Of a DNA stretch of 30,237 bases, positions 10,391 to 18,676 are shown piece by piece (the first letter of the stretch is position 1; each line of letters begins with the position of its first letter). Under the pieces are notes generated by a model. The model had not been told where the DNA came from and made no database searches. It saw only the letters and a program-made list of their open reading frames with translations. Both the position numbers and the translations under genes were made by a program. This stretch comes from a virus: positions 1 through 30,237 of the IMG/VR virus record IMGVR_UViG_3300000117_000148. One strand, 5' to 3'.

Positions 10391-10536
10391 CCCCCCTAGC
10401 CCAACTTCAAGCCCAATCTGAGCAAGTCTATCTGGCGGCTCGCATGGGCTTAATCACCGAAGAACAAAAGCGACACCGCCTAGCGATACTTGCGAATGGC
10501 ATTTTCGCGGCGGTTACGCATCAAGCTAAGCCCTAG
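10387..10536 (+). CDS. 49-residue hypothetical protein, end of the plus block
   Basis: ATG at 10387 in an ATGA overlap with the previous gene, stop TAG at 10534-10536. Helical (LAQLQAQSEQVYLAARMGLITEEQKRHRLAILANGIFAAV), no motif. Its stop lies in the palindrome CTAG (10533-10536), which also supplies the stop codon of the convergent minus-strand gene, so two operons end on the same four bases. Confidence 0.5.
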   Translation: MTPLAQLQAQSEQVYLAARMGLITEEQKRHRLAILANGIFAAVTHQAKP

Positions 10537-11045
10537 CCCCTAGCCATCCCGAAGTGATCCCCAAGCGCATCCAAGGCCAGCCTAAGCGCGACGATGCCGC
10601 CCTTCGGGTCATGCCCTTCCTTTTCGCCCCAATCCCGCGCCGTCATGCCCTCTATGGCCACCCATTGCGCCACGCTTGACAGGTCGCGCCCTATGTCGCG
10701 CAGTGCGGCCATGTAGCTAGAAAAAGCTTCACCCACAGTTTCGCCGCCCTTGCCCCCATCAACGCGCACGGCCTCGTAGTCTATCGTTCGCTGCGATCTG
10801 CCAGCCATGAACCACAACCGATATAGCTCTAGCCCGGCCTCATATTGCCGCCGACTGATTTGCTCGCGCTGAAAATATCTGTCCAGCATAGTTTGATTAA
10901 CAATCCGCACGCGCTTAGCGCTGCCTAGCTGCTTACTGGTGCGCTCATACATCACGCCGTCATTCCCGGCCTTACCTAGCCGTTCTGGCGTCCCGTAGTC
11001 TGACAAATCGCTTAACTGGTTAAGCCGTTTTTTAGGCCGTTTCAT
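10533..11045 (-). CDS. DUF6456-like protein, possible late regulator
   Basis: A 170-residue protein, last of the early operon. The N-terminus is basic (MKRPKKRLNQL). Residues about 53-80 read LDRYFQREQISRRQYEAGLELYRLWFMAG, and the C-terminal half has AALRDIGRDLSSVAQWVAIEGMTARDWGE followed by ALRLALDALGDHFG, a helix-turn-helix-like layout typical of DUF6456 proteins of alphaproteobacteria and their phages. In temperate phages the last early gene is often the late activator or antiterminator; that role is inferred from position only. Start at ATG 11045. Confidence 0.55.
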   Translation of the reverse strand: MKRPKKRLNQLSDLSDYGTPERLGKAGNDGVMYERTSKQLGSAKRVRIVNQTMLDRYFQREQISRRQYEAGLELYRLWFMAGRSQRTIDYEAVRVDGGKGGETVGEAFSSYMAALRDIGRDLSSVAQWVAIEGMTARDWGEKEGHDPKGGIVALRLALDALGDHFGMARG

Positions 11046-11088
11046 GGGGCTTTCCTCGCTGCCTAGTATGTCCCCACCCGATCACCCC

Positions 11089-11358
11089 TTAACCCCCCTC
11101 ATGGGAGCCTATAGCGCCTGCTATGGCCATGTATCCGATAGCATCCACCAAGCTATCTTCCTTCCATCCGCGATCCAGCCGCGCAAGCTTCAGTTCAACC
11201 AAAATTCGCGCCGCCTGATACGCTGTGATTTCCTGCCCGATCACCAAGCTGATCCGCTGTGCAATGCGTTCGTGAAGCTGCCGAAAGTCTCCATATTGCC
11301 CGCCGCGCTCTGCAAGTATTTCCTGCGAAACGCCAAGGTAATGATCCACCGCTTTCAT
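11089..11358 (-). CDS. DUF6378-like small phage protein
   Basis: An 89-residue helical protein with RGGQYGDFRQLHERIAQRI (about residues 18-36), then QEITAYQAARILVELKLARLDRG and EDSLVDAIGYMAIAG. The YGDF, Q-A--L---K-AR and DS--D-IGY pattern matches a small phage family (DUF6378), distantly like MazG-type folds. A nucleotide-related role is possible but unproven. Its start overlaps the stop of the next upstream gene by four bases. Confidence 0.65.
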   Translation of the reverse strand: MKAVDHYLGVSQEILAERGGQYGDFRQLHERIAQRISLVIGQEITAYQAARILVELKLARLDRGWKEDSLVDAIGYMAIAGAIGSHEGG

Positions 11359-11699
11359 TGCACCACCTCATACAGCCAAGTCTTGTTTCGCTTAAGGGTG
11401 CGCGGCGTCTGGCTCGACTTTCTGATGCGCCCGGTCAGGCTTAGCGCGTGCAGATTGTTCGCCACCTTGTGAATCGACATGTCGAGCTTGATCGCTAAGT
11501 CTTCGGCGGTTGCCGCGCCTGTCATTCGCAAGGCGGTCATCACGGCAACGCCTGACATTGTCATTCGGCGGTCTTTGGTTTCCTGATCGCATGGCAGCGT
11601 TGGCCGTCTGCCCAGCCTGACTTGCTCGCGTTCATATTCCAGCATCCCCGCCGCCGTTACGTCTTCGCCAGCCGCTTGCCATCTTGCCCAACTAATCAT
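11355..11699 (-). CDS. Winged-helix DNA-binding protein
   Basis: A 114-residue protein. Residues about 48-95 (SGVAVMTALRMTGAATAEDLAIKLDMSIHKVANNLHALSLTGRIRK) form a clear winged helix-turn-helix: a helix, a turn with TAEDLA, the recognition helix IHKVANNLHAL and a basic wing. The N-terminal 40 residues are charged. It overlaps both neighbours by four bases, so it is co-expressed with them. Probably a small transcription regulator or replication accessory factor. Confidence 0.55.
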   Translation of the reverse strand: MISWARWQAAGEDVTAAGMLEYEREQVRLGRRPTLPCDQETKDRRMTMSGVAVMTALRMTGAATAEDLAIKLDMSIHKVANNLHALSLTGRIRKSSQTPRTLKRNKTWLYEVVQ

Positions 11700-12058
11700 T
11701 TTGCATTTTCCTTTTGCAGTTCAAATTTACGTTCGATGATTCGCTCGCGCTGGCGTTCGCTCCACCGAAGCAGTTGCGGCGCGTTCAAAATTTTTCTCCG
11801 ATTGGCAAGCCCAGACAATTCCTCGTAATCCGTGATATCGGCAAGTGCAGAAGCAAATTGTTTTTCTGTTAATTCTGCGTAATCAAGAAACCGCTCTGGA
11901 CAGTCACTCGCCAAAGACATGACATCCACATTCTTAGGAATGTGGATGATGTCTTTCTGGCTTGCTGAAAGTGACCCCTGATGTCTTTGGCATGTCTTTG
12001 GCATGTCTTTGGCTTTACCTAAGTCATTGTTTTTATTGTATTTGCCGTGGACACTCAT
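11696..12058 (-). CDS. Protein encoded beside the iteron array
   Basis: A 120-residue basic protein starting at ATG 12058. The first 35 residues (AKDMPKTCQRHQG and so on) are encoded by the 11-bp repeats themselves, so their sequence is partly a by-product of DNA function. The rest is charged and helical, with ERFLDYAELTEKQFASALADITDY and a basic end (LRWSERQRERIIERKFELQKENAK). No family recognised. A replication gene that contains its own origin repeats is known from lambda O; this gene could be an origin-binding factor by analogy only. Confidence 0.45.
   Translation of the reverse strand: MSVHGKYNKNNDLGKAKDMPKTCQRHQGSLSASQKDIIHIPKNVDVMSLASDCPERFLDYAELTEKQFASALADITDYEELSGLANRRKILNAPQLLRWSERQRERIIERKFELQKENAK
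11911..11960. repeat. Large dyad inside the gene at 11696-12058
   Basis: An 11-bp perfect stem, CATCCACATTC (11923-11933) and GAATGTGGATG (11938-11948), closes a TTAG loop. Just outside lie oppositely oriented iteron copies: CCAAAGACATG at 11911-11921 and ATGTCTTT at 11949-11956. The whole structure could extrude as a cruciform or bind a dimeric protein. Confidence 0.75.
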
Positions 12059-12133
12059 GTCTTCACCATGTCTTTGCCATGTCTTTCATCCGTGGACATC
12101 CCGAAGACATCATGTCTTTGGCGTGTCTTTGAC
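11981..12133 (+). repeat. Iteron-like array, unit ATGTCTTTGGC
   Basis: Eight direct copies or near copies of ATGTCTTTGGC start at 11981, 11992, 12003, 12057, 12068, 12079, 12112 and 12123. Within each cluster the step is exactly 11 bases, and the gap from 12079 to 12112 is 33 bases (three units), with an inverted copy at 12101-12111 in it. Phasing at one helical turn puts all units on the same DNA face. The array spans the gene start at 12058 and the gap up to the primase-helicase stop. A replication origin or a cooperative operator are the likely explanations. Confidence 0.8.
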
Positions 12134-12148
12134 CTATTTTCGCCGACC

Positions 12149-13918
12149 TCACACATGCCTGATAATTCCCCCCGAATAGCTGATGATATTCTGGTCGATC
12201 AGGCGCTTAATATCGCGGTCAGCTTGGCGCTGGCTTTTGTCTAATTCGAGCGCTACGGCTTCCCTCAAGTCTTTCCTTTGAACCTCGCCGAAGTCGTCCA
12301 TTCGCTTGATCTGATCCAAGACTACGCCCTTGACGTACTCAGGGTCTTTCTTGTCCAGTGGTTTGTCTTCGGTGTATTCCAGCACCAGCGAGTTAGTCTC
12401 CTCGCCAGACGGGGTGACAAGCGGCACGCTCACCTTTAGGAACGTCATTGGCTCTGGTTCTTCTGCGTCTTTCATTTTGGTCGGCGTGAGGATGATCTTA
12501 GTGTCCCCCCAGCCTTCCACTCTGTATTCGCAATCCATTCTGCCGCGCAGTCTGGTGCTGCCTCTTGCCCTTTCGGTATGCTGATGCCCAACGTGCTGCA
12601 CGATCATCACTGTGGCGTTAAATTCTTCGCGCAGCTTGTCGCACACATTGAGGTACAGCGAGATGTCTTCGCCTGACGAATCATCCCCCATAATCGTCCT
12701 GTCCAGCGTGTCCAAAACGATCAGCTTGGGCTGACCTATTTCCTTCGCCATTTCGCGCAATTCATCAAGCAGGGGTTCACCCTTATCTTCATCATTCAGC
12801 AGAATGGTTGAATTGCTTTTGAAGAACGGCACGCCATCCAGATCGACATCTTTTGCCGTCTTCCAAGCTGCCACACGCCTTGCATATCCTGCATGCCCTT
12901 CGCCAGCCACGAAGATGACCGGGCCGCTTGCCACGGCTCTACCGTGATAGTCTTGCCCTGTGGCCACACACAGCGCTATATCAAGCGTAACAAACGTCTT
13001 GCCGCTTCCAGACTTGCCGAACAGCATGCTCAGCGCGTCTTCTTCGATCATACCGTCAACCAACCATTTCGGCGTTGTCATTTGCAACTGGTCAACTCTG
13101 GTAAACAACCCCGCCTCACGCTTAGCGCCTTGCAGGGCATGCTTAACTGCGTTTGCCCCTAGCGTAACGAACACGTCATTCCAATCGGCGTCCTTTTGCG
13201 CTGGCGCGGCCCATCTTTGACCGCTTGCCTTTGCTGCCTTTATGCCGGGTTCGTCGTTATCGGCGGCGACCACAAGTTCGACCTCTGGAAAGGCTTCGCT
13301 GAGCGCCTCGCAAACCTTTGGCAAGTTCCCAGCATCCAGCGCGAACACTGCATTGCCTTGCATGGCCATCGCGCAGCTTGCAGCCGTGGCCCAACCCTCT
13401 GCGACAAACACCTTGCCCGACCCCAGCTTGCCGCACACGCCAAACGCGCCATCCTTTGCTAAGCCCTTGCTAAACCGCTTCTGCCCATCCGGGCTTATCC
13501 GTTGCTCACCGACCCGTTCACGCTGTGCGTTAAACAACGGTATAACTACTGTATCGCCGTCCAGCTTAGCCCCAAGCAAGGCAACACCTTTGCGCTCATG
13601 GTAAAGCTTTGGCGCGTCACCAAAGTCATCTTGATTGTTAGGCACTTCTTTTTGCAGTATCGGCACAACGTTGTCGGCTGGCCGCAGCACAGGCCACACG
13701 CCATCGTGCCGCATTTCGTCGGCCATTTCGCCGATAGTGCAGCCTTGGCGGCAGTGCGCTTTGACCAGCCCTTGATATTCTTTTATCCAGAACCGATCTG
13801 TGCCGCCGCAGCTTGGGCAAGAGCCATGCCACTCGCCCTTACTGCTTTGCTTTAGATTATACTTGGTGATGATCTTATCTGACCATTCTGACCACCAAGT
13901 TTGCTCGAAGTCAGGCAT
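12149..13918 (-). CDS. Fused primase-helicase
   Basis: A 589-residue replication protein with three parts. Residues 30-60 form a zinc finger (C34, C37, C56, C60) typical of phage primases. Residues about 165-250 are a TOPRIM domain with E174 in FVAEGWATA, D220 and D222 in AADNDEPG, and a DWND element at 245-248. Residues about 280-500 are a RepA-type hexameric helicase with Walker A GKSGSGKT (301-308), VAGEGH and Walker B LIVLDTLDRT (D403). The end is a small winged-helix-like region. It would make primers and unwind the template. It sits next to SSB and the iteron array. Confidence 0.88.
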   Translation of the reverse strand: MPDFEQTWWSEWSDKIITKYNLKQSSKGEWHGSCPSCGGTDRFWIKEYQGLVKAHCRQGCTIGEMADEMRHDGVWPVLRPADNVVPILQKEVPNNQDDFGDAPKLYHERKGVALLGAKLDGDTVVIPLFNAQRERVGEQRISPDGQKRFSKGLAKDGAFGVCGKLGSGKVFVAEGWATAASCAMAMQGNAVFALDAGNLPKVCEALSEAFPEVELVVAADNDEPGIKAAKASGQRWAAPAQKDADWNDVFVTLGANAVKHALQGAKREAGLFTRVDQLQMTTPKWLVDGMIEEDALSMLFGKSGSGKTFVTLDIALCVATGQDYHGRAVASGPVIFVAGEGHAGYARRVAAWKTAKDVDLDGVPFFKSNSTILLNDEDKGEPLLDELREMAKEIGQPKLIVLDTLDRTIMGDDSSGEDISLYLNVCDKLREEFNATVMIVQHVGHQHTERARGSTRLRGRMDCEYRVEGWGDTKIILTPTKMKDAEEPEPMTFLKVSVPLVTPSGEETNSLVLEYTEDKPLDKKDPEYVKGVVLDQIKRMDDFGEVQRKDLREAVALELDKSQRQADRDIKRLIDQNIISYSGGIIRHV

Positions 13919-13930
13919 CTTGCCCCCACC

Positions 13931-14509
13931 CTAAAACGGTATCTCGTCATTGAAATCGTCGCTCGCCTTGCTTTCGGTTGACGGCAGACCAAACGGGTCT
14001 TCGCTGTCGCCGAATGGGTCAGCTTCCTCGCGTTCCTTAAGCTCTATCCATTTCACCTTTTCGGGGCGCAGCGTAACGCCTGACTTGCCGCCAAACTTCC
14101 ACGGCCTGATGCCGACCATGACGTGTATCTTGCTGCCAGTCGTAAGCTGAAAATCGTCGGCGCAAAGTTGACCATCTTTGTCAAACTGCTTTGGCTTGCT
14201 TTTGGCCTCGCCGTAAGTCTTTTTGTTCATCTTTATTATCCAGCAACCGCTTTCGTCTTGCTTGAACAAATCGCCTAGCCCGGTTGGCTTCCAAGCTGGC
14301 CAATCTTTGTCGGACTTGCCGTTAAACGCTTCGGTCATCTTCTTGGCGAGTTCCTTAGCTTGCGCTTCGGTCACGATCACGTTTAGCTCATACTTGCCGT
14401 CTGGGTCAGTCGCTTCGGTCGGCATGCTTCGGTTTTGCGCTGCGTCAAACTTGTAAGCCCGATCTAGGCGTGGCCATAAGGCCTCTACGTTCATCAAATT
14501 GTGGTTCAT
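13931..14509 (-). CDS. Single-stranded DNA-binding protein (gp2.5-like)
   Basis: Start set at ATG 14509 (192 residues), where AAGGAG is well placed; an earlier start would overlap the nuclease stop. The body has an OB-fold-like layout: KYELNVIVTEAQAKELA, GSGWI-type beta strands, GSKIHVMVGIRPWKFGGKSGVTLRPEKVKWIEL. The last 35 residues are acidic and end in DDFNDEIPF, closely like the bacterial SSB tip DDDIPF that recruits partner proteins. It would coat single strands during replication and recombination. It lies between the RecE-like nuclease and the primase-helicase. Confidence 0.75.
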   Translation of the reverse strand: MNHNLMNVEALWPRLDRAYKFDAAQNRSMPTEATDPDGKYELNVIVTEAQAKELAKKMTEAFNGKSDKDWPAWKPTGLGDLFKQDESGCWIIKMNKKTYGEAKSKPKQFDKDGQLCADDFQLTTGSKIHVMVGIRPWKFGGKSGVTLRPEKVKWIELKEREEADPFGDSEDPFGLPSTESKASDDFNDEIPF

Positions 14510-14522
14510 TTTCTTTCTCCTT

Positions 14523-15308
14523 TTATGCCCAAGGGGGCAGTTCATCGACGACGAATACTGGCGGCCAACCAGTGTCGTAGCTTTGGGTTTCTTCGGCCTG
14601 TTTAATTTCCTGCAAGACGCGCTCGACGATTTCCAAATCGTGCTGCATCAGGTTTTCGCCGACCTCTACAATCGACGTTGCATACGGCGGCTCTTTCTCA
14701 ACATTGGCGAACAAGAAGCGCTCAGCTTTTAGCCCGGCAAGTTGTAATGTTCTGACGTACCAAGCCGCTTGTAAGCTGTACCCTAGCTGCGCCATCTGCC
14801 GCGTAAACTGGTACGGCTCTGCGCTCTGCGTGGTCTTGATGTCTACGATTAAGCCCTTGCTTTCTATGTACAGATCAGGGCGCGCCTTCATGCGCAGCTT
14901 GGTGTCGGGATGCTGAGCAAAGACAGACGCCTCACAGATGCGCTCTTTGTGTGACAACAGCTTGTGGATATGCGGATTGCCGTGCAGAGCGTTCACCATC
15001 AGCTCAACTTTTGCGAAGTCGCCACTGGTCAGCGCCACGGTTTCCAGCAGTTCAGCTTCCGCTTTGGCGTCAGCCCATGCGTGACCTCGGCGCGATTCCG
15101 GCCCTTCGACTGGTAAAACACCTTCCAGCGCCCAGCCATGCACGGCTGTGCCTATGTCGAAGGCGATGCTATTGCGAAACGGTCTGTCAGCCGTTGCGTG
15201 CGCTGGGGTAGACTTGTGCCAAGCCTTTGCGAAGCTACTGCTATAGCCTTCGCTAGCGTGATAGTCGGCGTTGCTTATGTCGTCATGTATTCCGAAGGGG
15301 TAGGTCAT
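14523..15308 (-). CDS. RecE-like PD-(D/E)XK exonuclease
   Basis: A 261-residue protein of the DUF3799/exonuclease VIII group. It has YHASEGYSSS and an FDIGTAVHGWALEG segment with H57, E126 in ICEASVF, D145 in KARPDLY, and D156-K158 in GLIVDIKTT, the metal-binding nuclease core. A conserved later segment reads LGYSLQAAWYVR. Such enzymes degrade one strand from DNA ends to start recombination with an annealing protein. No separate annealase (RecT or Beta) is recognised, but SSB is next to it. Confidence 0.85.
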   Translation of the reverse strand: MTYPFGIHDDISNADYHASEGYSSSFAKAWHKSTPAHATADRPFRNSIAFDIGTAVHGWALEGVLPVEGPESRRGHAWADAKAEAELLETVALTSGDFAKVELMVNALHGNPHIHKLLSHKERICEASVFAQHPDTKLRMKARPDLYIESKGLIVDIKTTQSAEPYQFTRQMAQLGYSLQAAWYVRTLQLAGLKAERFLFANVEKEPPYATSIVEVGENLMQHDLEIVERVLQEIKQAEETQSYDTGWPPVFVVDELPPWA

Positions 15309-15925: not shown

Positions 15926-16067
15926 CCTCTTGGATATACCCACGCCCATCACAGTCTTCGCACTGCACGTCCTCACCGCATGGCTCAAGGCCACGCCCGA
16001 AGCTGCGCCATGTGATGTCCTCGACAACGCCGTAGCCTTCACAGGTTTTGCAGGGGTGGTTGGTCAT
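15909..16067 (-). CDS. DnaJ-type zinc-finger miniprotein
   Basis: A 52-residue protein, start ATG 16067 in an ATGA overlap with the methyltransferase stop, end TGA 15909-15911. It carries two CxxCxGxG motifs, CKTCEGYG (6-13) and CEDCDGRG (36-43), the zinc-binding unit of DnaJ and related chaperones, so all four cysteines can hold one zinc ion. Stand-alone zinc-knuckle proteins are common in phage early operons. A role in nucleic-acid or protein binding is likely, but no target is known. Confidence 0.65.
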   Translation of the reverse strand: MTNHPCKTCEGYGVVEDITWRSFGRGLEPCGEDVQCEDCDGRGYIQEDDAGD

Positions 16068-16780
16068 AAGAGAGACTCCTGCGTTGGCTTGGGGTCGCTC
16101 TGAACAAATAAGTCAGGCTGGCGCGTGGCTTCTTCGACACGCTTGCAAGCTATCTCAAAGTAATCGGGGTCTAACTCTATGCCTGTGCCTTGGCGTCCTA
16201 GCTTCTGACATGCGACAAGCGTTGTGCCACTGCCCATGAATGGGTCTAGGATTGTTTGGTTTTCTAGTGTCGCCCTAGTGACGAGCCAGTTCATCACCTC
16301 TATTGGCTTTGGGCAAGGGTGGCCGCAAGCTTCTGCTGCCTTAGTCTGCGTTAAGTGCTTTGGCTGGATAGTCAGCCCAACTCTTGGGTCTTTGCCATAG
16401 AACAAAACTGGTTGGCTTGTAACTCTACCCCATTTACTCAAACCCGTGGCCGCAGGTTGAAATATTATCCCTAAATCATCGGGTTCTGGGTACAGAAAGA
16501 GGTTATTGCTACCCGTAGTTATAGCCCCAACACTTGCTTTTTGCATTGCGGCCTCAACCGCTGGGGCGCAAGTTTCTTCGATGTACTGCCGTGTGTCGGG
16601 GAAGGCCGCACTGTACTTTGTTTTCTTTGAGGCTTTGCCTAACGTGCCAGAACCCCCTGCAACCCCATACGGCGGGTCAGTAACCACAGCGTCAAAAGTG
16701 CCAAGCAGGGGCATAACCTCTAAGCAGTCACCTAATATTAGGCGCTGGCCACCTATGCGCTCCTCTTTCACGATAGCCAT
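16064..16780 (-). CDS. DNA methyltransferase, DPPY type
   Basis: A 238-residue N6-adenine or N4-cytosine DNA methyltransferase of the beta class: catalytic DPPYG at 35-39 comes before the AdoMet-binding DPFMGSGTT at 179-187, and the C-terminus has GIELDPDYFEIACKRV. DPPY rather than SPPY favours adenine methylation. No restriction gene is nearby, so it is an orphan enzyme: it may hide phage DNA from host restriction, or control gene expression. Together with ArdA it gives the phage two anti-restriction routes. Its start shares one base with the upstream gene's end. Confidence 0.88.
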   Translation of the reverse strand: MAIVKEERIGGQRLILGDCLEVMPLLGTFDAVVTDPPYGVAGGSGTLGKASKKTKYSAAFPDTRQYIEETCAPAVEAAMQKASVGAITTGSNNLFLYPEPDDLGIIFQPAATGLSKWGRVTSQPVLFYGKDPRVGLTIQPKHLTQTKAAEACGHPCPKPIEVMNWLVTRATLENQTILDPFMGSGTTLVACQKLGRQGTGIELDPDYFEIACKRVEEATRQPDLFVQSDPKPTQESLL

Positions 16781-17579: not shown

Positions 17580-18056
17580 ATGCCAGATAGCAGCAAGGTA
17601 ATGGGTAAATGGGGCAGAGCTTACTTGCCGACTTGGCTGATAGCTTTGCGCTACTCAAGCTTAACATCATGGAAGATAATCGTGTCAAACATGATCCCCG
17701 TGACGCATCATGGAAAATCTCGCCTAAAGAAAAAACAATCGGAAAACAAACGCTCTTGGAAATCTTCTGTTGGCGGCTGCTTTCGTTGCGCAAGCGAATG
17801 GGAAGACCCGCCCCAAGGCCCACCCGCTGATTACCCCAGCACAGAACAGTTGGGCGGCGCTTATAGCTTTTCTTGGATCATTGTTAAAAGGCTAGACAAG
17901 CAGATCAAGAATGATAGACCGCCCGTTGATAGAATTATACAGAATCCAGACTGCGGCTACAGTTACTATACAAAGGCTGAGCCAGATTGCGGATTTTCGG
18001 GAGACAAGGGTAAACCACAATGCACACACGCATTAAACCAAGAAGACAAAAATTAG
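17580..18056 (+). CDS. Doubtful reading frame between the operators and the repressor
   Basis: This 440-base gap has an open plus-strand frame of 158 codons starting at ATG 17580 with GGGAG nearby, and overlapping the repressor start by 37 bases. The predicted product has a Cys-rich end and no recognisable motif; a competing 73-codon frame (17609-17830, ISPKEKTIGKQTLLEIF) is no better. Either could be a small lysogeny gene, or the region could be an untranslated leader. Low confidence. Confidence 0.25.
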   Translation: MPDSSKVMGKWGRAYLPTWLIALRYSSLTSWKIIVSNMIPVTHHGKSRLKKKQSENKRSWKSSVGGCFRCASEWEDPPQGPPADYPSTEQLGGAYSFSWIIVKRLDKQIKNDRPPVDRIIQNPDCGYSYYTKAEPDCGFSGDKGKPQCTHALNQEDKN

Positions 18057-18676
18057 GATTAACTCAGGAAGAAGCAGCAAGGGAAGCTCGGATAAGCCAG
18101 AGCCAGTATAGCAAAATTGAAAGAGGCGAAGTTACGCGCCCGTCCTACAAAAAGCTCATACGAATAGCAGAAGCTTTAGGGTGTACGGTCGAAGACATTA
18201 CCGATGACGTTGAGCCAGAAGTCAAAACTGCTTTTCAAGCTTTTGTAAGTCCAAGCGCGGTGTTCATTCCGCTTTACTCAGAAAAGCAACCGATGAACAA
18301 AGAATTTAACCACGGGGATGGCTTTATCATCAGGCCAAACGCTGCCACCCAGCAGCAAATCAGGAAGCCCAGCTTCTTGGAATACAGTCAGACGGCGTAT
18401 GCCATCACGACTTACAGCGAAACCATGTCGCCGCGCTATAAGCCCGGTGATGTGCTATTCGTCGATCCCAAGCTGATACCACAGCCCGGCGACGATGTAG
18501 TGCTATTGTTTCAGATAGAAGACCGCTTGGTAGGCATGGTGCGAGAGTGCGCCGCGCCTGACCCAAACGGAACGATCACAGTACTTGACCTCAAGTCAGG
18601 CAAAAAGATCAACTTTATGACAAGCGACTTGTACGCGGTGCATGTCATTGTCGGTTCACAAAGGCATAGGGGCTAA
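18020..18676 (+). CDS. CI-like repressor, S24 fold with altered catalytic residues
   Basis: A 218-residue repressor. Residues 4-60 form an XRE helix-turn-helix (LGLTQEEAAREARISQSQYSKIERGE). The C-terminal half is LexA/CI-like S24: TYSETMSPRYKPGDVLFVDP, then PQPGDDVVLLFQ and LVGMVRECA. In active members these read SM-P and V-K-R; here the nucleophile position is T135 and the lysine position R175. So dimerisation is likely kept but self-cleavage is doubtful. It should keep the early and ardA-block promoters silent in lysogens. It is transcribed opposite to Cro. The ribosome site is weak (AAGG about 10 bases upstream). Confidence 0.85.
   Translation: MHTRIKPRRQKLGLTQEEAAREARISQSQYSKIERGEVTRPSYKKLIRIAEALGCTVEDITDDVEPEVKTAFQAFVSPSAVFIPLYSEKQPMNKEFNHGDGFIIRPNAATQQQIRKPSFLEYSQTAYAITTYSETMSPRYKPGDVLFVDPKLIPQPGDDVVLLFQIEDRLVGMVRECAAPDPNGTITVLDLKSGKKINFMTSDLYAVHVIVGSQRHRG

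Follow-up and report, generated by a model that had tools for sequence, protein, structure and literature searches.

Where does a temperate phage start its replication, and which of its proteins reads that site? The question is raised by a block of short repeats between a primase-helicase gene and a small open reading frame in the 30,237-base IMG/VR virus record IMGVR_UViG_3300000117_000148, the whole of which was analysed and is called the window here. The window carried genes for the large terminase, portal, major head protein and other virion proteins, together with an endolysin and an integrase, and Pfam/PHROG searches also identified exonuclease VIII, a CI-like repressor and a single-strand binding protein of the Gp2.5 kind. 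By its gene content, the window represents all or much of a temperate tailed phage. A DNA methyltransferase gene was located in the early region (16064-16780, - strand), and the replication genes were adjoined by small genes at 11089-11358 and 10533-11045 (both on the - strand) that matched DUF6378 and DUF6456. A blastn search of positions 11000-15000 against phage records returned no match, and an Rfam scan of the window found no RNA family.

The initial annotation had described eight repeat units at 11-bp steps in three clusters, with a dyad beside them, as a candidate replication origin. The unit ATGTCTTTGGC was found in exact form on the + strand at 11981, 11992, 12003 and 12112 and on the - strand at 11910, and no exact copy occurred outside 11910-12133 in the 30-kb window. 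Degenerate units were located at 12068 (one mismatch), 12123 (two mismatches) and 12057, 12079 and 11949 (three mismatches each), and an inverted degenerate unit with two mismatches was located at 12100. When up to one mismatch was allowed, six matches were counted against 0.63 expected, and none of 100 shuffles that preserved the dinucleotides reached six. Eight ATGTCTTTGGC-like units fell into three clusters, as described, with a step of exactly 11 bp within each (Table 1; cluster I spans 12112-12133 when its inverted unit is set aside). The reported gap of exactly 33 bp was recovered between 12079 and 12112. The 11-bp phase did not extend through the whole array because the other gap, from 12003 to 12057, measured 54 bp, which is no multiple of 11. 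The array began 15 nt past the stop codon of the primase-helicase gene and overlapped the beginning of the 120-residue ORF. Two iteron sets, clusters I/II and cluster III, flanked the AT-rich stretch in the manner of a PICI origin. This stretch contained AATAAAAACAAT on the - strand, which was common to the relatives and recurred between their iteron sets; it was identical in the L257 group, and the variant AAAAACAATGG was present in L240 and L246. GC skew, which had been proposed as a check, had no inflection at the array and was uninformative.

Table 1. Features of the candidate origin and of the adjoining genes, in window coordinates.
Feature	Position	Strand	Remarks
120-residue ORF	11696..12058	-	array encodes the N-terminus; three-helix core at residues 57-119 (model)
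Iteron-flanked hairpin	11910..11961		inverted unit at 11910; stem 11923-11933/11938-11948; unit at 11949
Iteron cluster III	11981..12013	+	three exact units in 11-bp steps
AT-rich stretch between the iteron sets	12014..12046		about 73% AT; candidate melting region, from sequence
Iteron cluster II	12057..12089	+	three degenerate units in 11-bp steps (12057, 12068, 12079)
Iteron cluster I	12100..12133	+	exact unit at 12112; units with 2 mismatches each at 12123 and, inverted, at 12100
Primase-helicase, proposed initiator	12149..13918	-	589 residues; Toprim_3, AAA_25 and C-terminal winged helix (Pfam/PHROG)
Predicted recognition helix codons	12194..12232	-	residues 563-575 (QRQADRDIKRLID); model helix 113-125

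Searches with the helicase and with the 120-residue protein gathered more than 200 related loci. Every close relative carried its own array of the 11-bp type at the same place, with the layout kept and the unit changed: CAGGACA in L004-L013, TTGGACA in L014-L018 and L125, GGGACAT in L103 and L105, GCGACAC in L127 and L255, and GCACC in L128 and L244. A DNA pattern search with the doubled unit matched two contigs only: L084, which is near-identical, and L083, which is unrelated and whose two unit copies were judged to be a chance occurrence. Representatives were defined as one locus per distinct helicase C-terminus, and 93 of the 134 carried a significantly repeated 7-mer in the first 300 bp after the helicase stop. 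Control stretches had such a repeat far less often, in 5 of 132 cases at +600 to +900 and in 4 of 132 within the helicase gene itself; about 30% of the representatives had no significant repeat downstream of the stop.

Some of these loci varied in other ways. In L249 (321-758, on the same contig as L093), AGGCAC units replaced AGGACA, and the recognition helix contained ANKLIK where ANR.IK is otherwise retained. Another repeat type, CGCGCCCCC, preceded the small-protein relative encoded in L256 (2930-2990). Some enterobacterial elements carried a GCGCCATTACTGG-like element between the iteron sets (L021 at stop+124, L034 at stop+119, L025, L221 and L231). This element was counted in 17 of 92 AAA_25 loci and in 0 of 91 control stretches, for which the pattern was slightly narrower, and was also found in EcCICFT073 (L274, 8997-9284), which has an unrelated D5 helicase. 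It is possibly a shared host-factor or priming site.

The window helicase matched AAA_25 with an E-value of 3.1e-36 (Pfam) and the profile of the RSF1010 RepA structure 1g8y with an E-value of 3.5e-4, as an RSF1010 RepA-like helicase would. D5_N and DUF5906 domains were not found in it; AAA_25 and Toprim_3 were present instead. At the C-terminus, a winged helix was predicted at about residues 519-589 (window 12149-12364). The AlphaFold model of residues 451-589, in which residue 1 corresponds to helicase residue 451, had a mean pLDDT of 82 and adopted this fold. VIA-align related the model to winged-helix domains with Z up to 10.2; two of the top three were in DNA complexes, and an MCM C-terminal domain was among the matches. 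Foldseek returned only matches with E > 0.01, so the evidence for this fold comes from VIA-align and the AlphaFold model.

Among the relatives, the array unit changed along with this C-terminal winged helix. In the enterobacterial relatives, one residue of the recognition helix, at the position aligned by eye to Q565 of the window, predicted one base of the iteron in 89 of 92 loci: H or K accompanied GTGG, N accompanied GTGA, and G, S or A accompanied GTGC. Loci with K had five Gs, and those with H had three or four in most cases. The three exceptions were L226, an AT-rich locus whose AAATGAG/CTCATTT sites were compatible with the rule, and L223 and L224, in which no clear array was found. A second group behaved similarly in 13 of 14 loci, with NKRQA accompanying TACG and NKSQA accompanying TATA or GGTAT. 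A tree computed from the remainder of the helicase, with the winged-helix domain removed, had 13 changes of residue class (for the H/K group, at least 8 with good branch support) and 14 changes of the base, which followed the residue. On the starred branches, the independent pairs, four per test, agreed in direction in 3.7 and in all 4 of the cases; by this strict test, four pairs are too few for formal significance. The adjacent helicase domain and array could travel as one module, which would explain their joint inheritance but does not explain the recurrence of the same residue-base pairing. No one-to-one mapping was found in the clade of the window, where the helix SQRQADRD occurred with AAAGACA units in the window and with TTGGACA units in L125. 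No helix residue could be matched to the AAAGACA unit, which stands in place of GGACA, because the near-identical helix of L125 accompanied another unit; other residues, possibly in the wing, may decide the unit in this clade. The literature text searched, mainly that of non-subscription papers and without their figures, contained no residue-base rule or hairpin for AAA_25 helicases, which is weak evidence of novelty.

These results bear on the identity of the reader. The initial annotation had favored an origin of the lambda O type with the 120-residue protein as the binder. As in lambda, where the origin is within gene O, the iterons are located inside a replication-region coding sequence, here at the 5' end of the small ORF. 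The frame through the array was open and partly conserved in many relatives (for example, LRTxLGQ), and an origin embedded in coding sequence, with a new unit, appears to be real. The assignment of the binder was not supported. The small protein had no Pfam or PHROG match and no recognised DNA-binding domain, the PDB search with its family gave no match, and the fold search with its low-confidence model gave no meaningful one. Residues 1-56, encoded by the array, were predicted to be disordered, whereas the core of the family (ANRR..LNA..L) was nearly invariant across loci with AAAGACA, GGACA, GCACC, GCGACAC and CGCGCCCCC units, and the gene began after the array in L014-L018 and L256. For these reasons the small gene looks like a passenger or accessory factor and not like the iteron reader. 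Furthermore, the containing gene does not resemble an initiator gene, no O/P pair was recognised nearby, and the hairpin and the upstream helicase-initiator have no lambda counterpart. Initiation by the 120-residue protein is thus very improbable. The upstream primase-helicase is likely to be the initiator and the reader of the array, since the units co-vary with its winged helix and the core of the small protein stays constant.

The array could instead be a cluster of operators, either bound by a repressor or serving to autoregulate the replication operon. Repeats near the start of a gene may have a regulatory function, and replication initiators often autoregulate too. Exact units were confined to 11910-12133, however, and were absent near the CI-like repressor gene (18020-18676) and the other HTH genes, the units co-vary with the winged helix of the helicase itself, and the array occupies the site 3' of the helicase gene at which satellites carry iterons of function-tested origins (PMC6092414). 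We therefore regard the operator function as a poor candidate with little chance of being correct. It is also conceivable that the helicase binds the array as an accessory cis site (an enhancer, incompatibility or partition-like site) and that replication starts elsewhere. Phage P4 provides a precedent, with separate ori and crr sites for one binding protein. Against this, no second cluster of units was found in the 30-kb window, and two iteron sets around an AT-rich stretch are the tested layout of PICI origins; an accessory role is accordingly unlikely.

The dyad beside the array was confirmed as an 11-bp perfect stem between facing units, with a 4-nt loop of TTAG on the + strand and CTAA on the - strand. 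The facing units extended it to about 52 nt, and its DNA fold reached -19.8 kcal/mol compared with -5.2 kcal/mol for shuffles (z = -8.15). Among the relatives, the best palindrome within 220 nt was taken as the hairpin of each locus, a choice that favours pairing, and constant distance was not a selection criterion. The hairpin centre was located 112-130 nt upstream of the ANRR codons, mostly at 124.5-125.5 nt, in 27 of the 29 loci with a palindrome picked; L016 and L256 were the outliers, and L014 and L018 had no perfect stem of at least 6. The stem sequences differed between groups of relatives. The 20 distinct arm pairs comprised 160 positions, of which 153 were Watson-Crick pairs, one was G-T and six were unpaired. 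When arms were swapped between loci in 2000 shuffles, the mean was 61 pairs and the maximum 84. Between the window and L003, one matched compensatory change was found, at 11926/11945.

Selection on the hairpin is likely from this pattern, and the near absence of G-T pairs points to a constraint at the DNA rather than the RNA level. Correction of one arm from the other by template switching could also keep the palindrome perfect. Because the place and the short pyrimidine-rich loop persist while the stem drifts by matched changes, the hairpin might be an origin element read by its structure, such as a single-strand priming or helicase-loading site, and together with the residue-base rule this would make the phages and satellites of this family a natural set of switchable, mutually exclusive origins; we offer this reading tentatively, as one that may well be wrong. 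Hairpins with a TTTA loop, often closed by C-G, were also observed behind distant AAA_25 helicases (L127, L130, L134, L137, L148, L161, L176 and L207), and in L207 an inverted iteron formed the outer stem.

The conserved architecture, the position and the co-variation with the DNA-binding domain of the helicase support the proposal that the array is the phage replication origin, to which we assign a probability of about 0.8. The combined model, with the array as origin, the upstream primase-helicase as initiator and the hairpin as an origin element, is also probable. In this model, the AAA_25 helicase would use its C-terminal winged helix to bind the 11-bp iterons on both sides of the AT-rich stretch, helicase rings would assemble there, and the stretch would melt. 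The helicase with its fused Toprim primase would then start the forks, and the hairpin facing the small gene would serve as a structural origin element, at which priming or loading might take place when the DNA is single-stranded.

Several known replicons share parts of this arrangement. The helicase domain resembles that of RSF1010 RepA, and the layout recalls the RSF1010 oriV, with its iterons, AT-rich stretch and ssi hairpins. The iteron binder of RSF1010 is a separate protein and its primase is of another type, whereas Toprim, helicase and winged helix form one polypeptide in the window. The closest layout to compare is that of the SaPI and PICI rep-ori regions (SaPIbov1, EcCICFT073), in which the origin is directly 3' of the initiator-helicase gene, as is the array of the window, and two iteron sets flank an AT-rich region. 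Two such sets directly 3' of the rep gene were reported for E. coli PICIs, and the rep-ori of EcCICFT073 drives plasmid maintenance (PMC6092414). In the CFT073 record, the rep gene encoded a D5-type helicase (D5_N and DUF5906) and was followed by GGTAGA repeats. SaPI Rep uses its C-terminal domain to recognise the origin, which immediately follows the rep gene (PMC7581432); a C-terminal domain is the proposed origin reader in the window, where it is predicted from sequence and model. The helicases of SaPIs and PICIs are related to D5 or DUF927, unlike the AAA_25 domain fused to Toprim in the window. The window is also a phage with its own terminase, portal, major head and other virion proteins, endolysin and integrase rather than a satellite lacking a full virion gene set, and its candidate origin, which extends into the following ORF, has a covarying hairpin at its end. 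SCCmec Cch2, with AAGTG iterons, shares the combination of a helicase C-terminal domain and a downstream iteron region; the isolated C-terminal domain of Cch2 binds that region (PMC7581432). Cch2 differs in its D5-type helicase, separate primase-polymerase and three iterons, and in belonging to an element without virion genes.

If the model is true, the origin and the initiator of a large group of environmental temperate phages and prophages would be readable from sequence, behind the AAA_25 helicase gene. The recurrent matching of residue and base would be a natural experiment on how replicons change their origin specificity and so end mutual competition, and the hairpin would be an unexplained part of the origin that is conserved in structure.
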